A stretch of DNA of 64,000 bases from a virus: positions 1 to 64,000 of IMG/VR virus record IMGVR_UViG_3300042887_002440; one strand, 5' to 3'. Shown here piece by piece: positions 38,226-63,124 of the stretch (the first letter of the stretch is position 1; the number at the start of each line of letters is the position of its first letter). The notes under the pieces were generated by a model. The model was not told the DNA's origin. It saw nothing but the letters and a program-made list of their open reading frames with translations, and made no database searches. The translations under genes were made by a program, and so were the position numbers.

Positions 38226-39905
38226 TTGGCTAAATTTTCATTATTCGGTTTTAAAATAGGGAAAGATACACCAGCACAGGAAGTGCTACCTTCTTTTTCA
38301 GCGCCAGTATTAGATGATGGTGCAGTAACTATTACTGCAGCAGCACATTATGGCACATCGATTGACCTAGATTCAAATTACAAAAACGATGTTGAGTTAA
38401 TTACTAGATATCGCGAAATGGCTATGCAGCCAGAAATTGAAAGCGCAGTTGACGATATCGTCAATGAAGCAATTGTAAACGAAGAAGGGGTTATTGTAAA
38501 ATTAAATTTAGATAACTTAAAAGTTACCCCAAAAATTAAAAAAGCTATTGAAGATGAATTTGATAATATCTTGACTCTTTTAAATTTTAAACAATTGGGT
38601 CAAGATATTTTTAGAAGATTTTATATCGATGGAAGAATGTATTACAATATCATTCTTGATAAAGAAAATACTTCTGGTGGTATTCAAGAGTTGCGTTACA
38701 CGGATCCACGTAAAATAACAAAAATTCGCGAAATTAAAAAAGTAAAAGACAAAACAACTGGATATGATATTGTTGCGGGTTATGTCGAATATTATATCTA
38801 TTCAGATGTTATTTCAACAAAATCAAACCTAACAAATTCAGGATTAAGAATCGCTCCAGATTCAATGATTAGTGTTACATCTGGAATATTAGACGCAAAA
38901 CGCTCAATAGTATTAAGTAATTTACACAAAGCAATTAAACCTCTTAACCAATTAAGAATGATTGAAGATGCTAGTGTAATTTATAAAGTATCAAGAGCGC
39001 CAGAAAGACGTATTTTTTATATTGATGTTGGTAATTTGCCTAAAATGAAGGCAGAACAATATCTTAAAGATATTATGACCAAATATAAAAATAAAGTTGT
39101 TTATGATGCATCTACTGGAGAAATCAGAGACGATAGAAGATTCCTTTCTATGATGGATGATTTTTGGCTTCCTAGACGTTCTGATAATAAATCAACAGAA
39201 ATCACAACATTACCATCATCAGCTGCATTTGATGATATGTCAATGGTAGAATATTTTGAGAAGAAATTATATAAAGCTCTTGGAGTTCCATTCTCTAGAT
39301 TAGTACAACCAGATAGCGCATTTGATGTTGGAACTAATCAAGTAATTTCCAGAGATGAAATTAAATTTGATAAAGCAATTCAAAGGTTAAGAAATAAATT
39401 TACTGATGTATTTGATCAAGCATTAAAAGTTCAGTGTCAATTAAAAGGTATTTGTTCTGACGAAGAATTTGATGTCTATAAACAAGATTTCAATTATGAT
39501 TTTGTTAGAGATAATAATTATGCTGAAATGAAAGATGCTGAACTATTGCAAAATAGATTAAATTTATTAGCGGTAGTTGATCCATATAAAGGTACATATT
39601 ATTCACAAGCTTGGATCCAGAAAAATATCTTGAAAATGGACGAAGATGAAATTGACCAAATGCAAAAAGAAATTGAGCAAGAAATTGCTAATAATTTGTA
39701 TCCTGATCCAAAATTACTTAATGACCCAATGGCAGGTTTAGGTGGAGATGGCGGTTTCCCTAGCGGCGATCCTAACCTAGATTCAGATGGTGATGGAGTT
39801 CCAAATGATCAAGATGCAAATGATCAAGATCCATCTATAGGTCGTCCAACAACAAAACCAAATAAACAATCAGCTACTGATAAAAAGAATCCGTACTATG
39901 ACTAA
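38226..39905 (+). CDS. gp20: gp20-like portal protein
   Basis: Dodecameric portal at the special vertex; 559 residues (T4: 524). Strong landmarks: LITRYREMAMQPEIESAVDD, the segment FRRFYIDGRMYYNIILDKEN, ELRYTDPRKITKIREIKK, YKVSRAPERRIFYIDVGNLP, NKVVYDASTGEIRDDRRF and DFWLPRRSDNKSTEITTLP. The C-terminal tail is Asp/Pro-rich (DSDGDGVPNDQDANDQD), resembling calcium-binding thrombospondin-type repeats, and is not seen in T4. The start is TTG, 8 bases after AAGGT; no upstream ATG gives a better fit. The end overlaps the next gene by 8 bases. Confidence 0.95.
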   Translation: MAKFSLFGFKIGKDTPAQEVLPSFSAPVLDDGAVTITAAAHYGTSIDLDSNYKNDVELITRYREMAMQPEIESAVDDIVNEAIVNEEGVIVKLNLDNLKVTPKIKKAIEDEFDNILTLLNFKQLGQDIFRRFYIDGRMYYNIILDKENTSGGIQELRYTDPRKITKIREIKKVKDKTTGYDIVAGYVEYYIYSDVISTKSNLTNSGLRIAPDSMISVTSGILDAKRSIVLSNLHKAIKPLNQLRMIEDASVIYKVSRAPERRIFYIDVGNLPKMKAEQYLKDIMTKYKNKVVYDASTGEIRDDRRFLSMMDDFWLPRRSDNKSTEITTLPSSAAFDDMSMVEYFEKKLYKALGVPFSRLVQPDSAFDVGTNQVISRDEIKFDKAIQRLRNKFTDVFDQALKVQCQLKGICSDEEFDVYKQDFNYDFVRDNNYAEMKDAELLQNRLNLLAVVDPYKGTYYSQAWIQKNILKMDEDEIDQMQKEIEQEIANNLYPDPKLLNDPMAGLGGDGGFPSGDPNLDSDGDGVPNDQDANDQDPSIGRPTTKPNKQSATDKKNPYYD

Positions 39906-40332
39906 GACAATACATAGAGATTTACCGCAGGTATTAATCCTAAAAAGAACTTATATACAAAGATTTCCTAATGGACAGCAAGTTGCACTGTATCACTCAG
40001 AGCATTTAAATCAATATATTACTGTTCCATTGGATGGATCTAAATTTTCTAATACATCAGAATCTGTATTAGAAAAATTAACTCAAATATCAGAGAATGA
40101 TGATATTCAGTCTATTATATTTAATGATTTATCTGAATTAAATATAAATAAAGAATGCGCTGATGTAATTTTAAATTTTATTAGCAATAACGAAGAATTA
40201 GCAGAACAATTACACGTTTCGGATAAAAGTTTCTTAGAAATTTTGGAACAGGCTGCTCAATTAGAATCAACAGATTTATCGGAAGAATCTGGTCAACAAC
40301 AGGAGTTAACAAACGATGAAATTGTTAAATGA
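39898..40332 (+). CDS. Small prohead-region protein of unknown function
   Basis: 144 residues between portal and protease, where T4 has the prohead core genes 67 and 68. It opens with HRDLPQVLILKRTYIQRFPN, followed by a helical acidic half (ISENDDIQSIIFNDLSELNI) and a Gln/Glu-rich tail. I do not recognise a named family; similar small proteins occur at this place in marine T4-like phages. It overlaps the portal gene by 8 and the protease gene by 17 bases, so all three are translationally linked. A prohead core role is inferred from place. Confidence 0.55.
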   Translation: MTKTIHRDLPQVLILKRTYIQRFPNGQQVALYHSEHLNQYITVPLDGSKFSNTSESVLEKLTQISENDDIQSIIFNDLSELNINKECADVILNFISNNEELAEQLHVSDKSFLEILEQAAQLESTDLSEESGQQQELTNDEIVK

Positions 40333-40957
40333 GTTTACCGAAACAGAAGTTCTAGTAGAAGAAGCTAACGGTAAAAAGAACCATACTATTAAAGGATATT
40401 TTATTCATTGCAACGAACAAAATAGAAATGGCAGAGTATATGTTAAAGAACATATGATGCCAGAAGTTGCAAGATATAAAAGAGATTATATAGATACTCG
40501 TAGATCTTTAGGTGAATTATCTCACCCAGAAGGTCCTCAAATTAACCCAGATAAAGTATCGCATCTTATCACTAAATTAGATTTTGATGATCACCGTTGT
40601 TTTGGAGAAGCTAAAGTTTTAGATACTCCTAATGGTAATATCGTAAAATCATTTATTGATGCTGGAGTTAATTTCGGGGTTTCTACCAGAGGATTGGGGT
40701 CTATTAAAGAATCAAATGGAATTAAATATGTCCAACCAGATTTTCGTTTAGTAACAGTTGATATTGTATTAGATCCATCAGGTAAAGATTGTTATGTTGA
40801 AGGTTTAATGGAAGGAAAAGAATGGATGTTTGTTGAAGGAAAAGGTTGGGTTGAACAATATCTAGAAGAATCAAGAGATACTTTAAGAAAACTATCAGCA
40901 AAAGAAGTTGAACCAATGGCTCTTAAAATCTTCGAAAACTTTTTAAGAAAACTTTAA
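40316..40957 (+). CDS. gp21: gp21-like prohead protease
   Basis: Serine protease of the herpesvirus-type (His-Ser-Asp/His) fold that processes capsid and core proteins; 213 residues (T4: 212). The His is in LGELSHPEGP near residue 69 and the Ser in GVNFGVSTRGLGS near 122. DYIDTRRSLGELSHP, FGEAKVLDTPNGNIVKSFID and VTVDIVLDPSGKD are conserved. Its T4 cleavage rule, (L/I)-x-E followed by a small residue, makes two targets in this window testable: the capsid protein gp23 and the protein at 59147. Confidence 0.93.
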   Translation: MKLLNEFTETEVLVEEANGKKNHTIKGYFIHCNEQNRNGRVYVKEHMMPEVARYKRDYIDTRRSLGELSHPEGPQINPDKVSHLITKLDFDDHRCFGEAKVLDTPNGNIVKSFIDAGVNFGVSTRGLGSIKESNGIKYVQPDFRLVTVDIVLDPSGKDCYVEGLMEGKEWMFVEGKGWVEQYLEESRDTLRKLSAKEVEPMALKIFENFLRKL

Positions 40958-40981: not shown

Positions 40982-41012
40982 ATTATTATAAAAATCTAAT
41001 AGGAGATATTTG

Positions 41013-42089
41013 ATGTCACAAAAAAATTTAAATCTTTCTGAAGCTGCAATGGATATCCTAAACGGCAACAGAAAAGACAAAGATACAAAACAAGATTCAT
41101 TTGGTCAAGGTCAAAAATTGCATGACACAGCTAATAAAACCACAGCATGCGATACAGGAAATGCAGATTGGGAAAAACCATATGTTGAAGCTCCAACAGC
41201 AACTCCTCCAGGACAAACACCACCAGTTGGACAAGAACCTGCTAAACATTTACCACCACAACCAGCTGACACTGTTTCAAAAGCTAACACAAAAGTAAAT
41301 CTTCATCCTAAAAAAGGTGTTAATGAAGAAGGCGAACCAGATGACGAAGAAGATGAAGTAAATGAAGATATCGCAGCATTAATGGCTGGCGAAAACTTAT
41401 CAGAAAGTTTCAAACGTAAAGCATCTGCTATCTTTGAAGCTGCAGTAAAATCAAAAGTTGGAGAATTAGCTGAAGAATTAGAAGCACATTATGTTGCTCA
41501 ATTCGAAGAAGCTTATGAAGATATGAAAGAAGATTTTACTAATAAAGTTGATGAATATCTAGATTACGTTACTGAATCTTGGATGGAAGAAAATAAATTA
41601 GCAGTTGAATCAGGTTTAAGAACTGAAATTGCAGAAGGCTTTATTGAGTCTTTAAAAACCGTATTCGAAGAACACTATATCGATATTCCTGAAGAAAAAT
41701 TCGATGTAGTAGAAGAATTAGCTTCTAAAGTAGAGGCATTAGAAAAACAAGTTAATGAAGAAATGTCTAAAAACATTGACTTGAAACAAAAATTGTCAGA
41801 ACAAAAGAAAGTTGAAGCTCTTCACGCAGTATGTGAAGGATTAACATTATCTCAAGCTGAAAAAATTAAAACTATTGCAGAGAGCGTAGAATTTGTAAGC
41901 GAAAATGATTTTGTTACACAAATGGAAGATATTAAAGAATCTTATTTCTCAGCATCTACCGTTAAACCAGCTTCTATTGAATCTTTAAATGACGTTATTG
42001 ACTTAAATGAAGAAGTAAAACCAGCAAAAAGAGTTGATCCAACAATAGCTGCTTATGCTTCACGTATTTCACAAACAATTTTAAAATAA
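41013..42089 (+). CDS. gp22: gp22-like prohead scaffolding core protein
   Basis: 358 residues (T4 gp22: 269). A Pro/Thr-rich segment (APTATPPGQTPPVGQEPAKH) lies in the first third. The rest is acidic and helical, with long heptad stretches (AELEEALEAH-type, VVEELASKVEALEKQVNEEM), ending VDPTIAAYASRISQTILK, typical of the T4 core protein. I start it at the ATG at 41013 with AGGAGA at 41001-41006; an in-frame TTG lies directly before. Degraded by gp21 during head maturation in T4. Confidence 0.88.
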   Translation: MSQKNLNLSEAAMDILNGNRKDKDTKQDSFGQGQKLHDTANKTTACDTGNADWEKPYVEAPTATPPGQTPPVGQEPAKHLPPQPADTVSKANTKVNLHPKKGVNEEGEPDDEEDEVNEDIAALMAGENLSESFKRKASAIFEAAVKSKVGELAEELEAHYVAQFEEAYEDMKEDFTNKVDEYLDYVTESWMEENKLAVESGLRTEIAEGFIESLKTVFEEHYIDIPEEKFDVVEELASKVEALEKQVNEEMSKNIDLKQKLSEQKKVEALHAVCEGLTLSQAEKIKTIAESVEFVSENDFVTQMEDIKESYFSASTVKPASIESLNDVIDLNEEVKPAKRVDPTIAAYASRISQTILK

Positions 42090-42116: not shown

Positions 42117-43460
42117 ATGGCTTTATTAAACGAAGAATTGCAAAATAAATGGAGTCCAGTTCTGGATCATCCAGAATTAGCAAAAATTACTGATCCATAC
42201 AAAAAAGCAGTTACTGCAATTGTATTGGAAAATCAACAAGCAGCGATGGATTCAGATCGCGAAACATTGATGGAAGGAACACCAACTAATACAACTGGCG
42301 GTATTTCTAACTTCGATCCAATCTTAATCAGTTTAGTACGTCGTGCTTTACCTAATTTGATTGCATATGACGTAGCTGGCGTTCAACCAATGACTGGTCC
42401 TACTGGTTTGATCTTTGCTCTACGTTCACGTTATGGTGCACAAGGTTCAGCTCAAAGCAATGGCAGCACTTCTGGTGGCGGAACAGAAGCATTCTACAAC
42501 GAAGCTAATACTATCTTCTCTGGTATTATTGGCACAGGCGGTTCTGTTTCTACAGGTCAATCTAATACTGCTGTTGGTACATCAGGTCCAAATGCTAATT
42601 CAGTATTTGATTCTGGACAAGGTATGACAACTGCTGCTGGTGAAGTATTAGGCGACGGTAATGGTACTGTATTCGGCGAAATGTCAATTTCAATCGAAAA
42701 AGTTACTGTTTCTGCAAAAACTCGTGCATTGAAAGCTGAATACAGCTTAGAAATGGCACAAGATTTGAAAGCAATTCATGGTTTAGATGCTGAAACTGAA
42801 TTATCAAACGTTTTATCTACAGAAATTCTTGCTGAGATGAACCGTGAAGTAATTCGTACAATCTATACAGTTGCTAAAGCTGGTGCTCAATTCGGTACAG
42901 TTACTGCTGGTGTATTCGACTTAGATACAGACTCAAATGGTCGTTGGTCAGTTGAAAGATTTAAAGGTTTGATTTATCATATCGAAAGAGAAGCTAATCA
43001 AATCGCAAAAACAACACGTAGAGGAAAAGGTAACATCTTAATTGTTTCTTCTGACGTTGCTTCTGCTCTAGCAATGGCTGGCGTATTACAATATACTCCT
43101 GCTTTATCTGCTGATTTACAAGTTGACGATACTGGTAATACATTTGCTGGTTTGTTACACGGTCGTATCAAAGTTTATATCGATCCTTATTTCGGTGGTT
43201 CATATCAAAACGTTGAATTATGTACAGTTGGTTATAAAGGTACAAGTCCTTATGACTCTGGTTTATTCTACTGTCCATATGTTCCTTTACAAATGGTTCG
43301 TGCAGTTGATCCAGGTACTTTCCAACCAAAAATTGGCTTCAAAACTCGTTATGGTTTAGTTGCAAACCCATTTGCTGAAGGTTTAACTCAAGGCTTGGGT
43401 GCTATTACTCCACGTAGCAACAACTATTACAGAATTTTTGCAGTGAAAAATCTTATGTAA
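42117..43460 (+). CDS. gp23: gp23-like major capsid protein
   Basis: HK97-fold shell protein; 447 residues (T4 gp23: 521), the shorter size usual in marine T4-like phages. Conserved stretches: FDPILISLVRRALPNLIAYD, GVQPMTGPTGLIFALRSRY, GNGTVFGEMSISIEKVTVSA, KTRALKAEYSLEMAQDLKAI, RGKGNILIVSSDVASAL and the C-terminal KTRYGLVANPFAEG. A candidate gp21 site is LME-GT at residues 51-55, close to where T4 gp23 is trimmed. Strong AAGGAG ribosome site at 42102-42107. The bidirectional terminator at 43487 follows. Confidence 0.97.
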   Translation: MALLNEELQNKWSPVLDHPELAKITDPYKKAVTAIVLENQQAAMDSDRETLMEGTPTNTTGGISNFDPILISLVRRALPNLIAYDVAGVQPMTGPTGLIFALRSRYGAQGSAQSNGSTSGGGTEAFYNEANTIFSGIIGTGGSVSTGQSNTAVGTSGPNANSVFDSGQGMTTAAGEVLGDGNGTVFGEMSISIEKVTVSAKTRALKAEYSLEMAQDLKAIHGLDAETELSNVLSTEILAEMNREVIRTIYTVAKAGAQFGTVTAGVFDLDTDSNGRWSVERFKGLIYHIEREANQIAKTTRRGKGNILIVSSDVASALAMAGVLQYTPALSADLQVDDTGNTFAGLLHGRIKVYIDPYFGGSYQNVELCTVGYKGTSPYDSGLFYCPYVPLQMVRAVDPGTFQPKIGFKTRYGLVANPFAEGLTQGLGAITPRSNNYYRIFAVKNLM

Positions 43461-56758: not shown

Positions 56759-57067
56759 ATGGCAAAAAATAAATGCCAACCGTGTATAACTATTTCTACT
56801 ATTTGGAAATTAGCGAAAATACATTTTAAACATTTTATGGAGGATGTTCGGGCATTTAATATCGTTCAGGAATATTCTTGTAAAATTTATTATGACGAGA
56901 ATATTTGTAAAACTGCTTTAATTTCATCTAGAGAAGCTGAAATGATTAAAAAGGTACGAGAAACTGCTGCATCTAAATATAATTCTACTATCACCGAACA
57001 GATATTCGCAATACCAGAAGATGTGCAAAATAAAATTAATGAACAACTTATAGAAGAGACTACTTAA
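56759..57067 (+). CDS. Small protein of unknown function
   Basis: 102 residues, starting at the ATG at 56759 after GAGGTG. Two N-terminal cysteines (KCQPC) and further Cys at EYSCKI and ENICKTA could bind metal. The middle SSREAEMIKKVRETAASKYN is helical. No family recognised. It sits between the deformylase-like and glycosyltransferase genes in the same transcript. Confidence 0.55.
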   Translation: MAKNKCQPCITISTIWKLAKIHFKHFMEDVRAFNIVQEYSCKIYYDENICKTALISSREAEMIKKVRETAASKYNSTITEQIFAIPEDVQNKINEQLIEETT

Positions 57068-57070
57068 ATT

Positions 57071-57865
57071 ATGGAAATTCAATTATCAAAAGAAAACTTA
57101 GAAGGTAAAAAATTATTTATTGCTACTCCAATGTATGGAGGTAGTTGTCTTGGTGCATATATGAAAGCTTGTTTGGATTTACAAGCAGTTGCAATTCAAT
57201 ATGGCATTGAAATTAAATTTTCGTTTTTATTTAATGAAAGTTTGATTCAGAGAGCAAGAAATTATTTAGTTGATGAATTTTTACGTTCTGATTGCACGCA
57301 TATGATGTTTATTGATGCGGATATTGGTTTTAATCCATTGGATGTTATTGCTATGTTAGTATTAGATAAAGATATTATCGGTGCGCCATATCCAAAGAAA
57401 ACAATTAAATGGGAAAATATTAAAAAAGCTATTATCAAAAATCCGAATATTTCTACTACTGAATTAGAAAGATTAGGCGGCGATATTGTATTTAATCCTG
57501 TTGCGGGAACTAAGCAGTTTAATGTTACTGAACCTCTACAAGTTCTTGAAATCGGAACTGGTATGATGATGATTCGTAAAGACGTTTTAGGTAAATTTAA
57601 AGAAGCATTTCCTCAATACGAATATACGCCTGATCATGTTGGTACACAACATTTTGGTGGTGATCGAAAAATTCATTCATATTTTAATGTTGAAATTGAT
57701 GAAGAATCTAATCGTGTATTGAGCGAAGATTATCATTTCTGTCAACAATGTAGAAAGATTGGAATTGAAGTTTGGATGGCGCCATGGGTTAATTGCGTTC
57801 ATGTTGGTAGTTATCAATTTCAAGGTAATTTACCTGCTGTAGCTAATTATCTCGGCGAATTGTAA
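57071..57865 (+). CDS. GT-A fold glycosyltransferase-like protein
   Basis: 264 residues. The N-terminus LFIATPMYGGSCLGAYMKAC and the metal/nucleotide-sugar motif CTHMMFIDADIGFNPLDVIA (DxD near residues 84-86) are those of phage GT-A glycosyltransferases. IIGAPYPKKTI, GTGMMMIRKDVL, the acidic SEDYHFCQQCRKIG (likely catalytic base) and VWMAPWVNCVHVGSYQF follow in family order. The acceptor is unknown: protein, cell-surface glycan, or a hydroxymethylated base made by the dioxygenase in this window. It is the last gene before the tRNA region. Confidence 0.75.
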   Translation: MEIQLSKENLEGKKLFIATPMYGGSCLGAYMKACLDLQAVAIQYGIEIKFSFLFNESLIQRARNYLVDEFLRSDCTHMMFIDADIGFNPLDVIAMLVLDKDIIGAPYPKKTIKWENIKKAIIKNPNISTTELERLGGDIVFNPVAGTKQFNVTEPLQVLEIGTGMMMIRKDVLGKFKEAFPQYEYTPDHVGTQHFGGDRKIHSYFNVEIDEESNRVLSEDYHFCQQCRKIGIEVWMAPWVNCVHVGSYQFQGNLPAVANYLGEL

Positions 57866-57883
57866 AATAATTTAAAAAAATGC

Positions 57884-57912
57884 TTGACTTTATAGAGGTG
57901 TTAATATATAAT
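57884..57912 (+). promoter_or_regulatory. sigma70 promoter of the tRNA cluster
   Basis: TTGACT (57884-57889), 17 bases, TATAAT (57907-57912). The small inverted repeat AGAGGTG...ACCTCT spans the -10 (57894-57918). Expected to start transcription about 95 bases before the first tRNA. Confidence 0.85.
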
Positions 57913-57984
57913 ACCTCTATAGTAAAAAAATAAAAATAATTTTAAAAAAGTTGTAAAATTTGACTAAATAGAATAAAGTATTTT

Positions 57985-57992
57985 TATAAATA
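57985..57992 (+). promoter_or_regulatory. Late promoter (TATAAATA) before the tRNAs
   Basis: Exact late octamer 22 bases before tRNA-Thr. With the upstream sigma70 promoter it would keep the tRNAs transcribed early and late. Confidence 0.72.
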
Positions 57993-58013
57993 GATACTTT
58001 ACTAAGAATATTT

Positions 58014-58088
58014 GCCTCTTTAGTATAATGGCTATTACAGTTGACTTGTAATCTTCAGATCTCAGTTCGATTCTGGGAAGAGGCTCCA
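58014..58088 (+). tRNA. tRNA-Thr (TGT)
   Basis: Acceptor GCCTCTT/AAGAGGC, T-arm CTCAG-TTCGATT-CTGGG, encoded CCA. Loop CTTGTAA gives anticodon TGT. The anticodon stem (GTTGA/TCTTC) has two U-U mispairs in the middle. Confidence 0.85.
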
Positions 58089-58096
58089 AATTATTA

Positions 58097-58173
58097 CTCC
58101 CATTAGCTCAGTCTGGTAGAGCGATCCGTTTGGGGCGGATAGGTCGGCAGTTCGAATCTGTCATGGGAGACCA
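58097..58173 (+). tRNA. tRNA-Pro (TGG)
   Basis: Acceptor CTCCCAT/ATGGGAG, anticodon stem ATCCG/CGGAT with loop TTTGGGG (anticodon TGG), T-loop TTCGAAT, encoded CCA. Confidence 0.93.
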
Positions 58174-58180
58174 AATATTA

Positions 58181-58256
58181 TGCGAGGTATGTCAGCGGTA
58201 GACGGCTAGGCTCATAACCTAGAGGACGTTGGTTCGATTCCAACCCTTCGCATCCA
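58181..58256 (+). tRNA. tRNA-Met (CAT)
   Basis: Acceptor TGCGAGG/CTTCGCA, anticodon stem CTAGG/CCTAG with loop CTCATAA (anticodon CAT), encoded CCA. The first pair is U-A, and the anticodon stem lacks three G-C pairs in a row, so it looks like an elongator rather than initiator. Confidence 0.88.
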
Positions 58257-58280
58257 AATTTGTTTAGTGAGAATTATATT

Positions 58281-58892
58281 ATGATTATAGGTTTACTTGG
58301 GTTTATTGGTTCCGGTAAAGGAACTGCTGGTGATATTTTAGTAGAAAATGATTTTACTGCTTTATCTTTTGCTGGTTCATTAAAAGATGCTGTATCTTCT
58401 ATTTTTGGTTGGGATAGAGCCTTATTAGAAGGAGATACTGAAGAATCACGAGTTTTTCGTGAAACTGTTGATGATTTTTGGTCAGTTAAATTTGGTAAAT
58501 CTATAACGCCTAGATATATTTTACAATATTTTGGTACAGAAGTTTGCAGAAATAATTTGCTTGATAGTATTTGGGTTGATTCTCTAGAAAGAAAAATTAA
58601 ACAGTATGATAACGTAGTTATTACTGATGTTAGATTTAAAAATGAAATTAGTTTTTTAAGGTCTATTGGAGCTAAATTTATACATATTGATAGAAAAGAA
58701 ACTAGACCTGAATGGTATGGATTTCTTGACTCGGTAGATAGACCTGTATTTGTGGCTTATGCTGAAGCTAGAGATATTCATAAATCTGAATATGAATGGT
58801 ATAGTAATCCTCATATTGATTATATAATTCAAAATGATGGAACTCTACAAGAATTAGAGTTAAAGATATTAGATGTAATTGTAAATGATTAA
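58281..58892 (+). CDS. gp1: gp1-like deoxynucleoside monophosphate kinase
   Basis: 203 residues (T4 gp1: 241). P-loop LLGFIGSGKGTAGDIL at the N-terminus, FAGSLKDAVSSIFGWDRALL, RYILQYFGTEVCRNNL, and VITDVRFKNEISFLRSIGAK are conserved. T4 gp1 phosphorylates dGMP, dTMP and hydroxymethyl-dCMP, so the enzyme here could also serve modified nucleotides. I start it at the ATG at 58281, directly before the P-loop strand; the TTG at 58260 lies 4 bases from tRNA-Met. It is embedded in the tRNA cluster. Confidence 0.88.
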   Translation: MIIGLLGFIGSGKGTAGDILVENDFTALSFAGSLKDAVSSIFGWDRALLEGDTEESRVFRETVDDFWSVKFGKSITPRYILQYFGTEVCRNNLLDSIWVDSLERKIKQYDNVVITDVRFKNEISFLRSIGAKFIHIDRKETRPEWYGFLDSVDRPVFVAYAEARDIHKSEYEWYSNPHIDYIIQNDGTLQELELKILDVIVND

Positions 58893-58900
58893 AAGATAAA

Positions 58901-58977
58901 TCCCAGATGGGCGCAAGGTGTGCCAGCTGACTGTTAATCAGTTTATCAGGTAGGTTCGATTCCTACTCTGGGAGCCA
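58901..58977 (+). tRNA. tRNA-Asn (GTT)
   Basis: Acceptor TCCCAGA/TCTGGGA, anticodon stem around CTGA/TCAG with loop CTGTTAA (GTT), T-loop TTCGATT, discriminator G, encoded CCA. Confidence 0.92.
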
Positions 58978-58983
58978 AATAAG

Positions 58984-59078
58984 ACCCATTAGGTGTGACT
59001 ATGACGGAATTGGTAGACGTCCTCGATTGTGATTCGAGATTTTGTGGGTTCAAGTCCCACTAGTCACCCCTAATGGGT
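58984..59078 (+). repeat. Inverted repeat flanking tRNA-His
   Basis: ACCCATTAGG (58984-58993) pairs perfectly with CCTAATGGGT (59069-59078). With one mismatch (T-C) it stacks on the 7-bp acceptor stem, giving a continuous helix of 17 pairs at the base of the tRNA. It might guide processing or act as part of a terminator. Confidence 0.75.
58995..59068 (+). tRNA. tRNA-His (GTG)
   Basis: Acceptor GTGACTA/TAGTCAC, anticodon stem CTCGA/TCGAG with loop TTGTGAT (GTG), T-loop TTCAAGT. Discriminator C as in His tRNAs. The 3' CCA is not encoded, and the base at -1 is T, not the usual G. The gene is enclosed by a perfect 10-bp inverted repeat that prolongs the acceptor helix. Confidence 0.85.
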
Positions 59079-59146
59079 TTAAAAAATAAATATGTAATAG
59101 AAGTCAACTATTGGCTTTATTCAAATTTATATAAAGGAATATATTA

Positions 59147-60190
59147 ATGTTAAGATTTAAAACGTTTATTAATGAACAACAAGCTGCTGAACATGTTGGA
59201 TATACTGCTGATTTATATTTGCACCCAACAGAAAAGCCTATTGTTTATATTTATAAAAAAGGCGTTCCTCTTGATGAAGCAGCTAAAGATTGGTCATTGC
59301 CTACTGTAACATCAACAGACCCTAATGATCCAACTAAAACTGGAAGAATTAGAGAATTAACAAAAGATAAAATAAAATTACCATCTGATCATCATTTAAA
59401 AGCATTTTCTGAATTTAAACCTACGAATTTGAATGATCATGAAAAAACTATGGAAGAATTCCATAAACACTTAGCCGCTCATGGGTTATATTCTGCTACA
59501 GATAAACATCCTATGCATAAAACTCCTCATATGCAAAAGTTTGAAGATGGAGTACATGATATTTTAGGTGGTGGAAAGCATGAACGTTGGCATACTGATT
59601 CTACTGGAGCATTAGGTTCTCCTGGATCAGCTGCTGCTAGAGATGCTGCTGTATATTCTAGTAGTCATGCCTCTACTCATGTAGGCAAAATTACTGGATA
59701 TGATGATAAAAAGAAACCAATAGTTGAACCTCTAAAGCCTGGAACTAAACCTGGAACTGTTCATATTTTTGATGATTATGGCGAAAAAATTCCTGGAACT
59801 AATCAAGGAGATAGCCAACATAAAGCTCCATCTAGGGAAGAACGAGGCGATAGACATTTTATCAGAGCTTCAGATATTAGAGCAATACCAGAAAAAGGTA
59901 TTCCTAAAAAAGGTGGAAGTCATTATGATCATAATACACCAGAAGGTATTGCTGACTATATTAAAGATAAAACGCCATCAAATGAAAAAAATAATATGCA
60001 CAATAAATTGCGTGTAAAAATTGGAAAATGGATATCAGATAATCCTAATCCAGCAGAAGGATCTGTTAATCATAAAAAGCGACAAAATTTATTAGCGCAT
60101 ATAAATAGCGAAACTAATAGGTCACATTATAATCATGATGGTTGGGTAGAAAAACATATGAAAAATGTTGATTCTAAGGCTAAAACTTAA
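59147..60190 (+). CDS. Candidate capsid-packaged protein with gp21 cleavage signal
   Basis: 347 residues with no family I recognise. The N-terminus MLRFKTFINE-QQ closely resembles the capsid-targeting sequence of T4 internal proteins (MKTYQEFIAE-A), which ends in (L/I)-x-E and is cut by gp21. The rest is basic and His-rich (HKTPHMQKFEDGVHDIL, KHERWHTDSTGAL), with Gly/Pro-rich turns; DRHFIRASDIRAIPEKGIP is a conserved-looking block. Together these suggest a protein packed in the head and injected with DNA. An enzymatic domain is possible but I see no catalytic motif with confidence. Ribosome site AAAGGAA precedes the ATG. Confidence 0.6.
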   Translation: MLRFKTFINEQQAAEHVGYTADLYLHPTEKPIVYIYKKGVPLDEAAKDWSLPTVTSTDPNDPTKTGRIRELTKDKIKLPSDHHLKAFSEFKPTNLNDHEKTMEEFHKHLAAHGLYSATDKHPMHKTPHMQKFEDGVHDILGGGKHERWHTDSTGALGSPGSAAARDAAVYSSSHASTHVGKITGYDDKKKPIVEPLKPGTKPGTVHIFDDYGEKIPGTNQGDSQHKAPSREERGDRHFIRASDIRAIPEKGIPKKGGSHYDHNTPEGIADYIKDKTPSNEKNNMHNKLRVKIGKWISDNPNPAEGSVNHKKRQNLLAHINSETNRSHYNHDGWVEKHMKNVDSKAKT

Positions 60191-60197
60191 AAAATAA

Positions 60198-60287
60198 GGA
60201 AGAGTGGCTGAGTGGTTTAAGGCAGCGGTCTTGAAAACCGTCGAGGGTTAGTCCCCTCCTAGAGTTCGAATCTCTACTCTTCCGCCA
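60198..60287 (+). tRNA. tRNA-Ser (TGA)
   Basis: Class II tRNA of 90 bases with a long variable arm (GAGGGTTAGTCCCCTC). Acceptor GGAAGAG/CTCTTCC, loop CTTGAAA (TGA), T-loop TTCGAAT, encoded CCA. Confidence 0.95.
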
Positions 60288-60294
60288 AATAAAT

Positions 60295-60369
60295 GTCGCT
60301 ATCGTCTATCGGTTAGGACACAAGATTTTCATTCTTGTAAGCGGGGTTCGACTCCCCGTAGCGACGCCA
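60295..60369 (+). tRNA. tRNA-Glu (TTC)
   Basis: Acceptor GTCGCTA/TAGCGAC, anticodon stem CAAGA/TCTTG with loop TTTTCAT (TTC), T-loop TTCGACT, encoded CCA. Confidence 0.95.
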
Positions 60370-60393
60370 ATATAGTATCAAAAATTGAACCTT

Positions 60394-60401
60394 TATAAAT
60401 A
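60394..60401 (+). promoter_or_regulatory. Late promoter (TATAAATA) of the HNH gene
   Basis: Exact late octamer 22 bases before the HNH endonuclease start; AAAGGG follows as ribosome site at 60408-60413. Confidence 0.75.
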
Positions 60402-60422
60402 AAAATAAAAGGGTTCGATTGT

Positions 60423-60869
60423 ATGAAAATATGTCCAAAATGTTTTATTAAACATGATAAAAATGGAAAATACTGTTCTAGAACTTGCGCTAACAGTAGA
60501 ACTTGGTCAGAAGAAGATAAACATAAAAAACGGTTAACCGTATTAAAAACTTTAGGTATGGAATATATCCCTAAAACCGCTAAAGCCGAAAAATGTTATC
60601 CTAATGAAACGGTTTTTGTTGAACATTCAAGTTATTCTAGGCGTAGTTTAAAAAAGAGAATAATTGAACAAAATTTGCTTAATCATTGCTGTCAAGAATG
60701 TGGGTTGAAACATGAATGGAATGGGAAACCAATAGTTTTGCAATTAGATCATATTAATGGTATTAATAATGATCATAGAATAGAAAATCTGCGTTTTCTT
60801 TGTCCTAATTGTCATACGCAACAAGATACTTATGCAGCAAAAAATATAAAAAAAAATAAAATTGGGTAG
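60423..60869 (+). CDS. HNH homing endonuclease
   Basis: 148 residues. Two zinc-finger-like Cys pairs at the N-terminus (CPKC, CSRTC) and two around the nuclease (CQEC, CPNC). The HNH core is LQLDHINGINNDHRIENLRF followed by LCPNCH, with the DH, N and H residues present. The stop codon TAG (60867-60869) lies inside the first bases of tRNA-Trp, so the gene is tightly fitted against it. Late expression from its own promoter is typical for T4 homing genes. Confidence 0.88.
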   Translation: MKICPKCFIKHDKNGKYCSRTCANSRTWSEEDKHKKRLTVLKTLGMEYIPKTAKAEKCYPNETVFVEHSSYSRRSLKKRIIEQNLLNHCCQECGLKHEWNGKPIVLQLDHINGINNDHRIENLRFLCPNCHTQQDTYAAKNIKKNKIG

Positions 60870-60940
60870 GTAGTTTAATTGGATAAAACGCGTGCCTCCA
60901 AAACACAAAGATGAGAGTTCGAATCTTTCCCTGCCCGCCA
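60864..60940 (+). tRNA. tRNA-Trp (CCA)
   Basis: Acceptor GGGTAGG/CCTGCCC, T-loop TTCGAAT, discriminator G, encoded CCA. Loop CTCCAAA gives anticodon CCA. The anticodon stem CGTGC/ACACA has C-A mismatches at both ends. It overlaps the HNH stop codon by 6 bases. Confidence 0.85.
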
Positions 60941-60962
60941 AATAATTTAATACGAGGAAGTT

Positions 60963-61145
60963 ATGAAAACTTTATTTTTAGTTAGTTTATGTTTATTATC
61001 AACAGGATGTGCGAGTTCTGGTGATTTAGCTAAGTTACAAGAGGATCATGCTGCTTTAACTGCAAAGGTTGATTCTTTAACTAATTCAAATAAACAGTGC
61101 GATAAAAAATTAGATAATTTCTTCAAAAAAGTTCAGAAAAAATAG
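60963..61145 (+). CDS. Small predicted lipoprotein
   Basis: 60 residues. MKTLFLVSLCLLSTGCASS is a signal peptide with the lipobox LSTGC, so mature protein would be lipid-anchored at Cys16. The rest is a short charged coiled coil (LAKLQEDHAALTAKVDSLTN) like murein lipoprotein, with a basic end (FFKKVQKK). AGGAAG precedes the ATG. Superinfection exclusion or Rz1-like lysis function are guesses; no Rz partner is adjacent. Confidence 0.75.
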   Translation: MKTLFLVSLCLLSTGCASSGDLAKLQEDHAALTAKVDSLTNSNKQCDKKLDNFFKKVQKK

Positions 61146-61148
61146 TTC

Positions 61149-61177
61149 TTGACTAATACATAGTTACGTTATATAAT
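61149..61177 (+). promoter_or_regulatory. sigma70 promoter before tRNA-Ile
   Basis: TTGACT (61149-61154), 17 bases, TATAAT (61172-61177), 13 bases before the tRNA. It shares the upstream sequence TAGTTCTTGACT with the inverted repeat near gp55. Confidence 0.87.
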
Positions 61178-61190
61178 AGTAATGTAATTT

Positions 61191-61266
61191 GCCCCTTTAG
61201 CTCAATGGTTAGAGCGTCCGACTCATAATCGGTTGGTTCTAGGTTCGAATCCTAGGAGGGGCACCA
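61191..61266 (+). tRNA. tRNA with CAT anticodon, probably tRNA-Ile2
   Basis: Acceptor GCCCCTT/GAGGGGC, anticodon stem CCGA/TCGG with loop CTCATAA, T-loop TTCGAAT, encoded CCA. The stem and variable region (CGACTCATAATCGGTTGGTT) resemble bacterial tRNA-Ile2, in which C34 becomes lysidine and reads AUA, more than elongator tRNA-Met. AUA is frequent in this genome. Confidence 0.85.
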
Positions 61267-61274
61267 AATATTCA

Positions 61275-61973
61275 TTATGTGAATAATATTGATTCAATTA
61301 AGTGTAATTTTAATTTGGAAATATATTCTTTATGCGATATTCTTATGGTTTGAATATTATAGTGTTTGAGAATTAATGCATCTCGTTGTAAATCATATTC
61401 TTTGGTTTGTTCATGTTGAGATCCATCTAATTCTATTAGTAGGTTTAATCCTGGAAAATAAAAATCTCCGTAATATAATTTAGTAGGACATCTAAATGTT
61501 TTATTTTTTATAAAATTTGTATAATTGTTTTTTAATAGCCAATTTTCAAATGATTTTTCTAAATATGAAGGTGAACTTCTATTTCTATTTTCGTTGGGAT
61601 TCCAACCATTATCTATTCTATTTCTTACATGGTTGGATAGTAATATAGATTTACATTTAGTTGAACACGTTTTACCTGTTCCTGTGTGATATTTTTTGCA
61701 TATTATACATAGTTTTATTTTTGTATATGGATAATAATTCTTTGGTTTTGTTCCTTTTTCTGGTCCACTTTTGAATTTTGAATAATCTTTATTTCTATTT
61801 CCATATTTTGCAGAACATGATGATGAGCAAAATTTGTTTTTGTTAAAAATTGGGTTATTACACTCAATACAATATGATTTAATAACGTGTTTTTGTAGGT
61901 GTTGTTTTAATGATTGTGATGTTATTTCTTGTTTACAAATAATACAAGAACATCTAATATTAAATTTAGACAT
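61275..61973 (-). CDS. VSR/EDxHD-type homing endonuclease with zinc fingers
   Basis: 232 residues. The N-terminal half has three Cys-rich fingers (CSCIICKQE..., CIECNN...FCSSSC, CIICKKY...CSTKC). The C-terminal half has the nuclease core: YLEKSFENWLLKNNY, then YGDFYFPGLNLLIELDGSQH (Asp, Glu and Q-H) and KEYDLQRDALILKHYNIQTI, the pattern of Vsr-like/DUF559 endonucleases. It lies between tRNA-Ile and tRNA-Gly on the opposite strand, with a minus-strand late promoter. Confidence 0.8.
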   Translation of the reverse strand: MSKFNIRCSCIICKQEITSQSLKQHLQKHVIKSYCIECNNPIFNKNKFCSSSCSAKYGNRNKDYSKFKSGPEKGTKPKNYYPYTKIKLCIICKKYHTGTGKTCSTKCKSILLSNHVRNRIDNGWNPNENRNRSSPSYLEKSFENWLLKNNYTNFIKNKTFRCPTKLYYGDFYFPGLNLLIELDGSQHEQTKEYDLQRDALILKHYNIQTIRISHKEYISKLKLHLIESILFT

Positions 61974-62030
61974 TATAGTTATTCCTGCGTACTAGTTTTA
62001 GGGACAGCCCAGTTACCTGCAATTGCGGTT

Positions 62031-62051
62031 GATAATACTCTTAATATTATC
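62031..62051. other. Hairpin in the leader of the VSR-like gene
   Basis: GATAATA and TATTATC form a 7-bp stem with a 7-base loop in the minus-strand leader between late promoter and start. A role in translation control is only suggested by analogy with other T4 homing genes. Confidence 0.45.
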
Positions 62052-62061
62052 TAACCTAATT

Positions 62062-62069
62062 TATTTATA
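62062..62069 (-). promoter_or_regulatory. Late promoter (TATAAATA), minus strand
   Basis: Exact late octamer on the minus strand, 89 bases upstream of the VSR-like endonuclease start. Confidence 0.72.
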
Positions 62070-62080
62070 CAATATTTAAT

Positions 62081-62155
62081 GCAAGTAAAGTGTTGATGGT
62101 TACACGTTCGGCTTCCACCCGAAAATATGGAGATCGTGACTCCATACTTGCTCCA
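62081..62155 (+). tRNA. tRNA-Gly (TCC)
   Basis: Acceptor GCAAGTA/TACTTGC, anticodon stem TTCGG/CCGAA with loop CTTCCAC (TCC), encoded CCA. The T-loop reads ATCGTGA rather than the usual TTCRANY, so the T-arm (TGGAG/CTCCA) is atypical. Confidence 0.85.
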
Positions 62156-62168
62156 ATTTAAAAATTAC

Positions 62169-62197: not shown

Positions 62198-62236
62198 ATA
62201 TTTAAAATGATTCTTAACGATGAGGTGATATAAAAT

Positions 62237-62917
62237 ATGAAAATTTCCCAAGAAACAACTGCTATTCTAAAAAACTTTGCTCATATTAACCAAGGTATTT
62301 ACTTTAGAAAGGGTAATGTAGTTTCAACTATGAGTCCAGGTAAAAATATTTTATCTGCGGCTACTATCTCTGATACAATTCCTCAAGACTTTGGTATTTA
62401 CGATTTAAATAATTTCTTATCAGTTGCTTCTTTATTTAAAGAAGGTCCAGAATTAGAGTTTGATGATAAACACGTAATTATTAAAGGTCGTGGTGGACGT
62501 AGTAAGATTAAATATCGTATTGCCGATCAATCAATGATTGTTGTTGCTCCAGATAAACGCCCTAATTTACCAGCAGTTGATGTTAAATTTACGTTTTCTA
62601 AAGAAGATTTTGAATGGGTAATAAAAACCGCAACTGTGCTTGGTGCAACGCACGTTGCTGTTGAGTCTGATGGAACTACTGTATCTTTAATTACATTTGA
62701 TGAGGCAAATGATTCAAGCCATGTTAATTCATTAGAATTAGCTGATGTTAATCCAGAAGGTAAAAGCTTTAAATTAGTTTTTAAAACTGAAAATTTAAAA
62801 GTTATTCCTGATACATATTCAGTAGAAATTAGTAATAAAGGTTTGTCTGCTTGGACATCAGTCACAGCTGAAATTAAATATTGGATTACTCTTGAAATGA
62901 GTTCTGTGTACGGATAA
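62237..62917 (+). CDS. gp45: gp45-like sliding clamp
   Basis: Trimeric processivity clamp for the DNA polymerase and coactivator of late transcription with gp55. 226 residues (T4: 228). Conserved start KISQETTAILKNFAHINQGI, the segment FGIYDLNNFLSVASLFKEGP and the end STYSVEISNKGLSAW-like sequence (DTYSVEISNKGLSAWTSVTA) with IKYWITLEMSS. Expressed from its own sigma70 promoter, consistent with early need. Confidence 0.95.
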   Translation: MKISQETTAILKNFAHINQGIYFRKGNVVSTMSPGKNILSAATISDTIPQDFGIYDLNNFLSVASLFKEGPELEFDDKHVIIKGRGGRSKIKYRIADQSMIVVAPDKRPNLPAVDVKFTFSKEDFEWVIKTATVLGATHVAVESDGTTVSLITFDEANDSSHVNSLELADVNPEGKSFKLVFKTENLKVIPDTYSVEISNKGLSAWTSVTAEIKYWITLEMSSVYG

Positions 62918-62920
62918 TAA

Positions 62921-63124
62921 ATGAGCGATTTTAATAATAAAATGTTAGATAGTTGGAATTCTTATATTCCCTCTACTGCGTATAAAATGAAACAAGTATT
63001 TTTATTTACTTTATTAGATTCTTATATGACGACATGTTTATATAATGAGCAATTTAATTCAGACGAAAATATAACTGATGAAGAATTTATATATGGCATT
63101 AAATCAATTTTGACGGAGGAATAA
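62921..63124 (+). CDS. Small protein between clamp and DsbA, unknown function
   Basis: 67 residues, acidic, beginning MSDFNNKMLDSWNSYIPSTA with a central hydrophobic helix (VFLFTLLDSYMTTCLY). It starts 3 bases after gp45 and ends 4 bases before dsbA, so it is cotranslated. T4 gp33 occurs near dsbA but I see no likeness to it here. Confidence 0.6.
   Translation: MSDFNNKMLDSWNSYIPSTAYKMKQVFLFTLLDSYMTTCLYNEQFNSDENITDEEFIYGIKSILTEE

Follow-up and report, generated by a model that had tools for sequence, protein, structure and literature searches.

A candidate injected internal head protein with a T4-like capsid-targeting leader, and the same leader on unrelated proteins of T4-like phages

The locus at positions 59147-60190 raises the question whether an orphan protein of a T4-like virus is packed into the phage head and delivered with the DNA. 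It was analyzed within a stretch of 64,000 nucleotides (the window), positions 1 to 64,000 of IMG/VR record IMGVR_UViG_3300042887_002440. The source record is a T4-like virus of 65.9 kb, and the major head protein in the window shares 62% identity with its counterpart in Methylophilales phage Melnitz. The first-pass annotation had suggested that the gene may encode an injected internal protein carrying a T4-like capsid-targeting peptide. This proposal is supported at the sequence level by the match of critical residues, the unrelated cargoes that carry the same leader, a virion protein of S-SM1, a contrast among DUF6321 proteins, a gp21-type protease, and a late-promoter motif. The gene product is probably a late-made, gp21-processed, injected internal head protein of the T4 type, likely acting on host defence or another host function. 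The gene and its predicted parts are as follows.

59147..60190, + strand: candidate internal (injected) protein gene, 347 aa; ATG open reading frame with a ribosome-binding site, supported by codon changes and GC3
59133..59139, + strand: AAAGGAA ribosome-binding site, 7 nt upstream of the ATG, read from the sequence
59147..59176, + strand: putative capsid-targeting leader MLRFKTFINE, residues 1-10; F4, F7, I8, and E10 match the critical positions of T4 IPIII
59174..59179, + strand: predicted gp21 cleavage site INE-Q between residues 10 and 11, inferred from the L/I-x-E rule
59177..60187, + strand: predicted mature protein, 337 aa, orphan; pI 8.95, no family match

Compared with a near relative (L001), the open reading frame differs by 13 synonymous and 4 nonsynonymous codon changes, which marks purifying selection. 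As its GC3 of 12% also resembles that of the neighbouring genes, 59147-60190 is a true coding gene. The start at ATG 59147, the length of 347 aa, and the leader MLRFKTFINE with its I-x-E end, followed by QQAAEH, all agreed with the earlier reading of this locus.

In T4, residues 1-10 of IPIII are enough for packaging; residues 4 and 7 of this leader control targeting, residues 8 and 10 control cleavage by gp21, and gp21 cuts after L/I-x-E (PMC9026906). The window leader MLRFKTFINE is identical to T4 MKTYQEFIAE at M1, F7, I8, and E10 and similar at position 4 (F or Y), so that the critical positions 4, 7, 8, and 10 read F, F, I, E in the window protein and Y, F, I, E in T4. A strict leader pattern, M..[FY]..F[ILVM].E, was applied to ATG-started open reading frames and matched one of them in the window (59147-60190), only IPII, IPIII, and gp61.1 in the whole of T4, and one apiece in the complete sequences of S-SM1 and Melnitz. 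Permuting or shifting the pattern in five ways gave no match in the window and two matches summed over T4, S-SM1, Melnitz, and the window. At the DNA level, a pattern of a ribosome-binding site followed by ML-x-FK-x-FI-x-E at gene starts occurred in at least 119 stretches of IMG/VR, compared with none for a scrambled pattern of equal degeneracy. Since the strict and DNA patterns exceed the permuted and scrambled controls, the leader in the window protein is more than chance.

Two further T4 products resemble proteins with a capsid-targeting leader. The gp61.1 protein (L124:18966-19130, NC_000866) starts MKTFKEFIKE, and a 76-aa open reading frame (L163:4810, T4 about 114,210) starts MLLEFKQFLYEA; the literature compared does not list either as a T4 internal protein.

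The proteins that carry the leader have little else in common. Among the matches listed, the mature parts of the tagged open reading frames formed 46 mutually unrelated groups, defined by having no match to one another at E<=1e-4. The cargo families among these matches include zeta toxin, HicA, ADP-ribosyltransferase, cytidylyltransferase, and HAD phosphatase (single scans), as well as SAM lyase, DUF6267, DUF6321, and LAGLIDADG, while most of the listed cargoes are without family and some are short and Lys-rich. Zeta-toxin-like kinases with the leader were found at three loci (L089, L003, and L056), with L089 above the PF06414 cutoff, and a 74-aa HicA-type RNase toxin with the leader MLSFKEFIVE at two (L043:4250-4471 and L075). 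Tagged ADP-ribosyltransferases at L081, L061, and L066 scored just above the PF03496 cutoff and have a His-rich N-terminal half; they are possible analogs of T4 Alt. Among the matches listed, 85% of the tagged mature parts have a pI above 8, compared with 47% of the genes at those loci. The invariance at positions 4, 5, 7, 8, and 10 is not independent evidence, because the search pattern fixed these residues. Positions 3 and 6 were left free and are nearly all polar among the tagged leaders listed, as they are in the window protein (R3 and T6), which is what an amphipathic helix would need. The phages with tagged proteins are mostly marine. In 123 of the 134 tagged loci, one or more open reading frames resemble T4, S-SM1, Melnitz, or the window, which makes this a tag of T4-like phages. 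The leader is a modular tag shared by unrelated cargoes of these phages.

A link between the tag and virions is provided by S-SM1, a T4-like marine phage. Its sole strict match, in the whole genome, is the cytidylyltransferase-like protein T4-GC190, which begins MKKFSAFLNE-AERSF and was detected by proteomics in purified S-SM1 virions by Sullivan et al. (PMC3037559). T4-GC190 resembles the window protein in having the leader at the same positions, but its mature domain has a recognisable CTP_transf-like fold unrelated to the window protein. DUF6321 proteins point in the same direction. They carry the leader in S-CREM1 (MKTYNDFITE-VAAWQRKEG) and in the metagenomic locus L036 (MLSFKDFITE-AAPAWQRKEG), whereas those of the podophages HTVC033P, Lederberg, and HTVC115P start MAK[TS]PAWQRK, without leader. 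Whole-record searches with PHROG 207 found no gp21-type protease in these three podophages and were positive for T4, S-SM1, Melnitz, and the window record. The presence and absence of the DUF6321 leader relative to gp21 may thus be read as a natural experiment tying the tag to virions. The pattern is not universal, since in P-SSM2, S-SM1, and MED4-213 DUF6321 makes up the C-terminus of a longer protein.

In these three fusions, DUF6321 begins right after a pair ending in E, namely VNE-GAAW in P-SSM2 (L153), QNE-SAAW in S-SM1 GC119 (L129), and VSE-EAW in MED4-213 (L155). These could be prohead-protease sites that release the domain.

The presumed processing machinery and the immediate surroundings of the tagged gene were located in the window as follows.

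40316..40957, + strand: gp21-type prohead protease, presumed to carry out the processing (PHROG 207 head maturation protease, 3.5e-67; whole-record search)
41010..42089, + strand: gp22-type scaffold, to which the leader would presumably dock in the prohead core (PHROG 237, 1.9e-75)
42117..43460, + strand: gp23-type major head protein (PHROG 138, 4.7e-159) with a candidate gp21 site LME-G at residues 51-53, read from the sequence
58901..59070, + strand: tRNA-Asn and tRNA-His, upstream of the 59147-60190 gene (ARAGORN)
60198..60369, + strand: tRNA-Ser and tRNA-Glu, downstream of the gene (ARAGORN)
59085..59092, + strand: late-promoter-like AATAAATA, 62 nt ahead of the start codon, by likeness to a cyanophage late promoter

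A gp21 homolog with plausible substrates shares the genome with the tagged gene. The tagged gene itself lies between the gp46 and gp45 genes, among tRNAs and homing-type endonucleases. The late promoter of cyanomyoviruses has been reported as NATAAATA (PMC2984593). In the window, the genes for tail sheath, tail tube, and gp22 have TATAAATA upstream, and the late-promoter motif was not found before gp45, gp46, and gp47. The motif ahead of the tagged gene, AATAAATA, differs from the T4-like TATAAATA, and AT-rich DNA yields such motifs by chance. Among the tagged loci listed, ATAAATA occurred at most 120 nt upstream of 30 of 79 tagged genes compared with 55 of 473 controls (Fisher p=6e-8). A scan for sigma-70 promoters around the 59147-60190 gene gave chance level only.

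The mature part has a pI of 8.95, 27 His (8%), and 0 Cys, and no match above chance was obtained for it in Pfam, PHROGs, NCBIfam, PADLOC, or PDB sequences. Its earlier description as basic, His-rich, and without recognised family was thereby confirmed. A tblastn search against 50,697 phage records, T4 included, gave no match at E<=1; neither there nor among PDB chains did it show sequence similarity to T4 Ip1, Ip2, or Ip3, and phmmer at maximum sensitivity found no relative of the mature part among the open reading frames of the collected tagged loci. In scans of viral and bacterial contigs, the only other copy was on one IMG/VR contig (L001/L084), whose protein is 99% identical. AF2 on a three-row alignment reached a mean pLDDT of 41 over the full length, and residues 258-347 by themselves reached 62; such models are not usable, and fold matches to them mean little. 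As nothing similar to the mature part turned up in the libraries, phage records, or solved structures searched, its function must be deduced indirectly, and an effector role rests on analogy because there is no relative beyond the one 99% identical contig. By this analogy, an early-acting counter-defence or host-takeover protein is the likeliest role. The REERGDRHFIRASDIRAI stretch was considered as a possible ADP-ribosyltransferase region, but this was rejected, as it had no profile match in Pfam, PHROG, or NCBIfam and no clear R/STS/E motifs.

The steps from docking and cleavage to packaging and injection, and likewise the kind of target, are inferred as follows. The protein would be synthesized late from an NATAAATA promoter, and residues 1-10 would act as a short amphipathic tag that docks it into the prohead core formed by the gp22 scaffold. 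As the head matures, the gp21-type protease of the same phage would cleave after E10 and release a basic, His-rich protein of 337 residues, which would remain among the packaged DNA. Ejected with the DNA into the next host, the mature protein would act ahead of any phage gene expression, most likely on host defence, or else on another host function. Internal L/I-x-E motifs are present in the mature part (LDE44, IRE70, and IPE249), and these could be cut as well, if exposed.

This course follows that of the T4 internal proteins. IPII and IPIII (MKTYQEFIAE-A), together with IPI, also have a ten-residue leader ending in L/I-x-E with aromatic residues at 4 and 7, I8, and E10, basic mature parts with no family resemblance among them, and a phage that encodes gp21. 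They differ from the window protein in length (76 to about 183 aa versus 337 aa for the mature part), in lacking its His-rich character and any sequence similarity to it, and in the wording of the leader, MKTYxxFIxE in T4 versus MLxFKxFIxE in the window protein. T4 Ip1, Ip2, and Ip3 have the leader alone in common, are injected, and each block a different GmrSD nuclease (PMC12373910). GmrSD targets of the E. coli kind are hypothetical for the host of the window phage. Judged from its sequence, the window protein would be of an internal-protein kind already known, with a new orphan mature part.

T4 Alt is an injected ADP-ribosyltransferase that modifies host RNA polymerase. Alt and the tagged protein at L081 are alike in being packaged, or presumably packaged, and delivered with the DNA, and L081 further resembles the window protein in its leader (MLRFKSFITE) and a His-rich region. 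L081 matches PF03496, while the window protein has no ADP-ribosyltransferase signature. The ejection proteins of SPN3US and phiKZ are likewise packaged in the head and trimmed by a prohead protease, as is predicted for the window protein, but their propeptides are longer and different, and their protease is diverged.

An unlikely alternative, though the most serious one, is that the protein is packaged without being an effector, as a filler or core protein, basic and His-rich, which associates with DNA and aids head assembly or DNA condensation. The basic mature part and the short, Lys-rich nature of some tagged cargoes fit such a role, which has been proposed for T4 IPIII, whose mutants give some aberrant heads; internal proteins also bind DNA at low salt (PMC9026906). 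However, T4 Ip1, Ip2, and Ip3 are all injected inhibitors of specific nucleases (PMC12373910), enzymes are numerous among the tagged cargoes listed, and the window gene sits in a tRNA and homing-endonuclease island outside the head cluster and is not widespread in relatives.

The same leader would also target a gp67/gp68-like component of the prohead core or scaffold, and the internal sites LDE44, IRE70, and IPE249 would suit a protein that is degraded by gp21 and leaves the head ahead of DNA packaging. In T4, the genes of core proteins adjoin gp20-gp23 and their products are acidic or helical. The window gene lies far from the gp20-gp23 cluster, its product is basic, and tblastn against phage records found no relatives in other T4-like phages, which makes this the least probable of the readings weighed. 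Scarcely more credit can be given to a resemblance of the N-terminus that is unrelated to capsids, whether by chance or through another signal, with the protein working in the producing cell. A ten-residue motif is short, but the excess of at least 119 DNA matches over none for the scrambled pattern, the calibration of the strict pattern on T4 and S-SM1, and the absence of the DUF6321 leader where gp21 was not detected all speak against it. Injection as an internal head protein of the T4 type remains the preferred reading.

The tagged repertoire, by its breadth and its toxin-like members, is a more interesting result than the window protein. The balance tips slightly towards a view in which T4-like phages, marine and other, use one interchangeable ten-residue tag to deliver with their DNA a very large arsenal of unrelated effectors, including toxin-type kinases, HicA-like RNase toxins, ADP-ribosyltransferases, SAM lyases, and many orphan families, in which the window protein would be the first of a new effector family to be described. 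If one tag serves the whole arsenal, it could be used to find injected effectors by sequence alone, and a one-line rule would identify the proteins that T4-like phages inject ahead of transcription. Many unannotated phage genes would become testable candidates for counter-defence or host take-over, the tagged zeta-type kinase, HicA, ADP-ribosyltransferase, and SAM lyase would represent toxin or metabolite-depleting folds re-used as injected weapons, and the window protein would be one orphan in this arsenal. The titles and opening lines of abstracts in open-licence literature on the capsid targeting sequence yielded no description of a tagged effector repertoire in T4-like phages, a scope within which novelty is not proven.

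Three minor observations concern the surrounding genome. A 144-aa open reading frame between the portal and gp21 genes (39898-40332) has only weak PHROG matches and, judged by position, may be a gp67/gp68-like core protein. The block 58263-62159 is 96-98% identical to L001, compared with 87% for the flank at 56794-58181 and 82% for gp45 (62220-63019), and as the identity of the block exceeds that of the flanks, a recent exchange of this island is suggested. Between tRNA-Glu and tRNA-Trp lies an HNH endonuclease gene (60423-60869) that L001 lacks at the corresponding place and that is a probable recent homing insertion.
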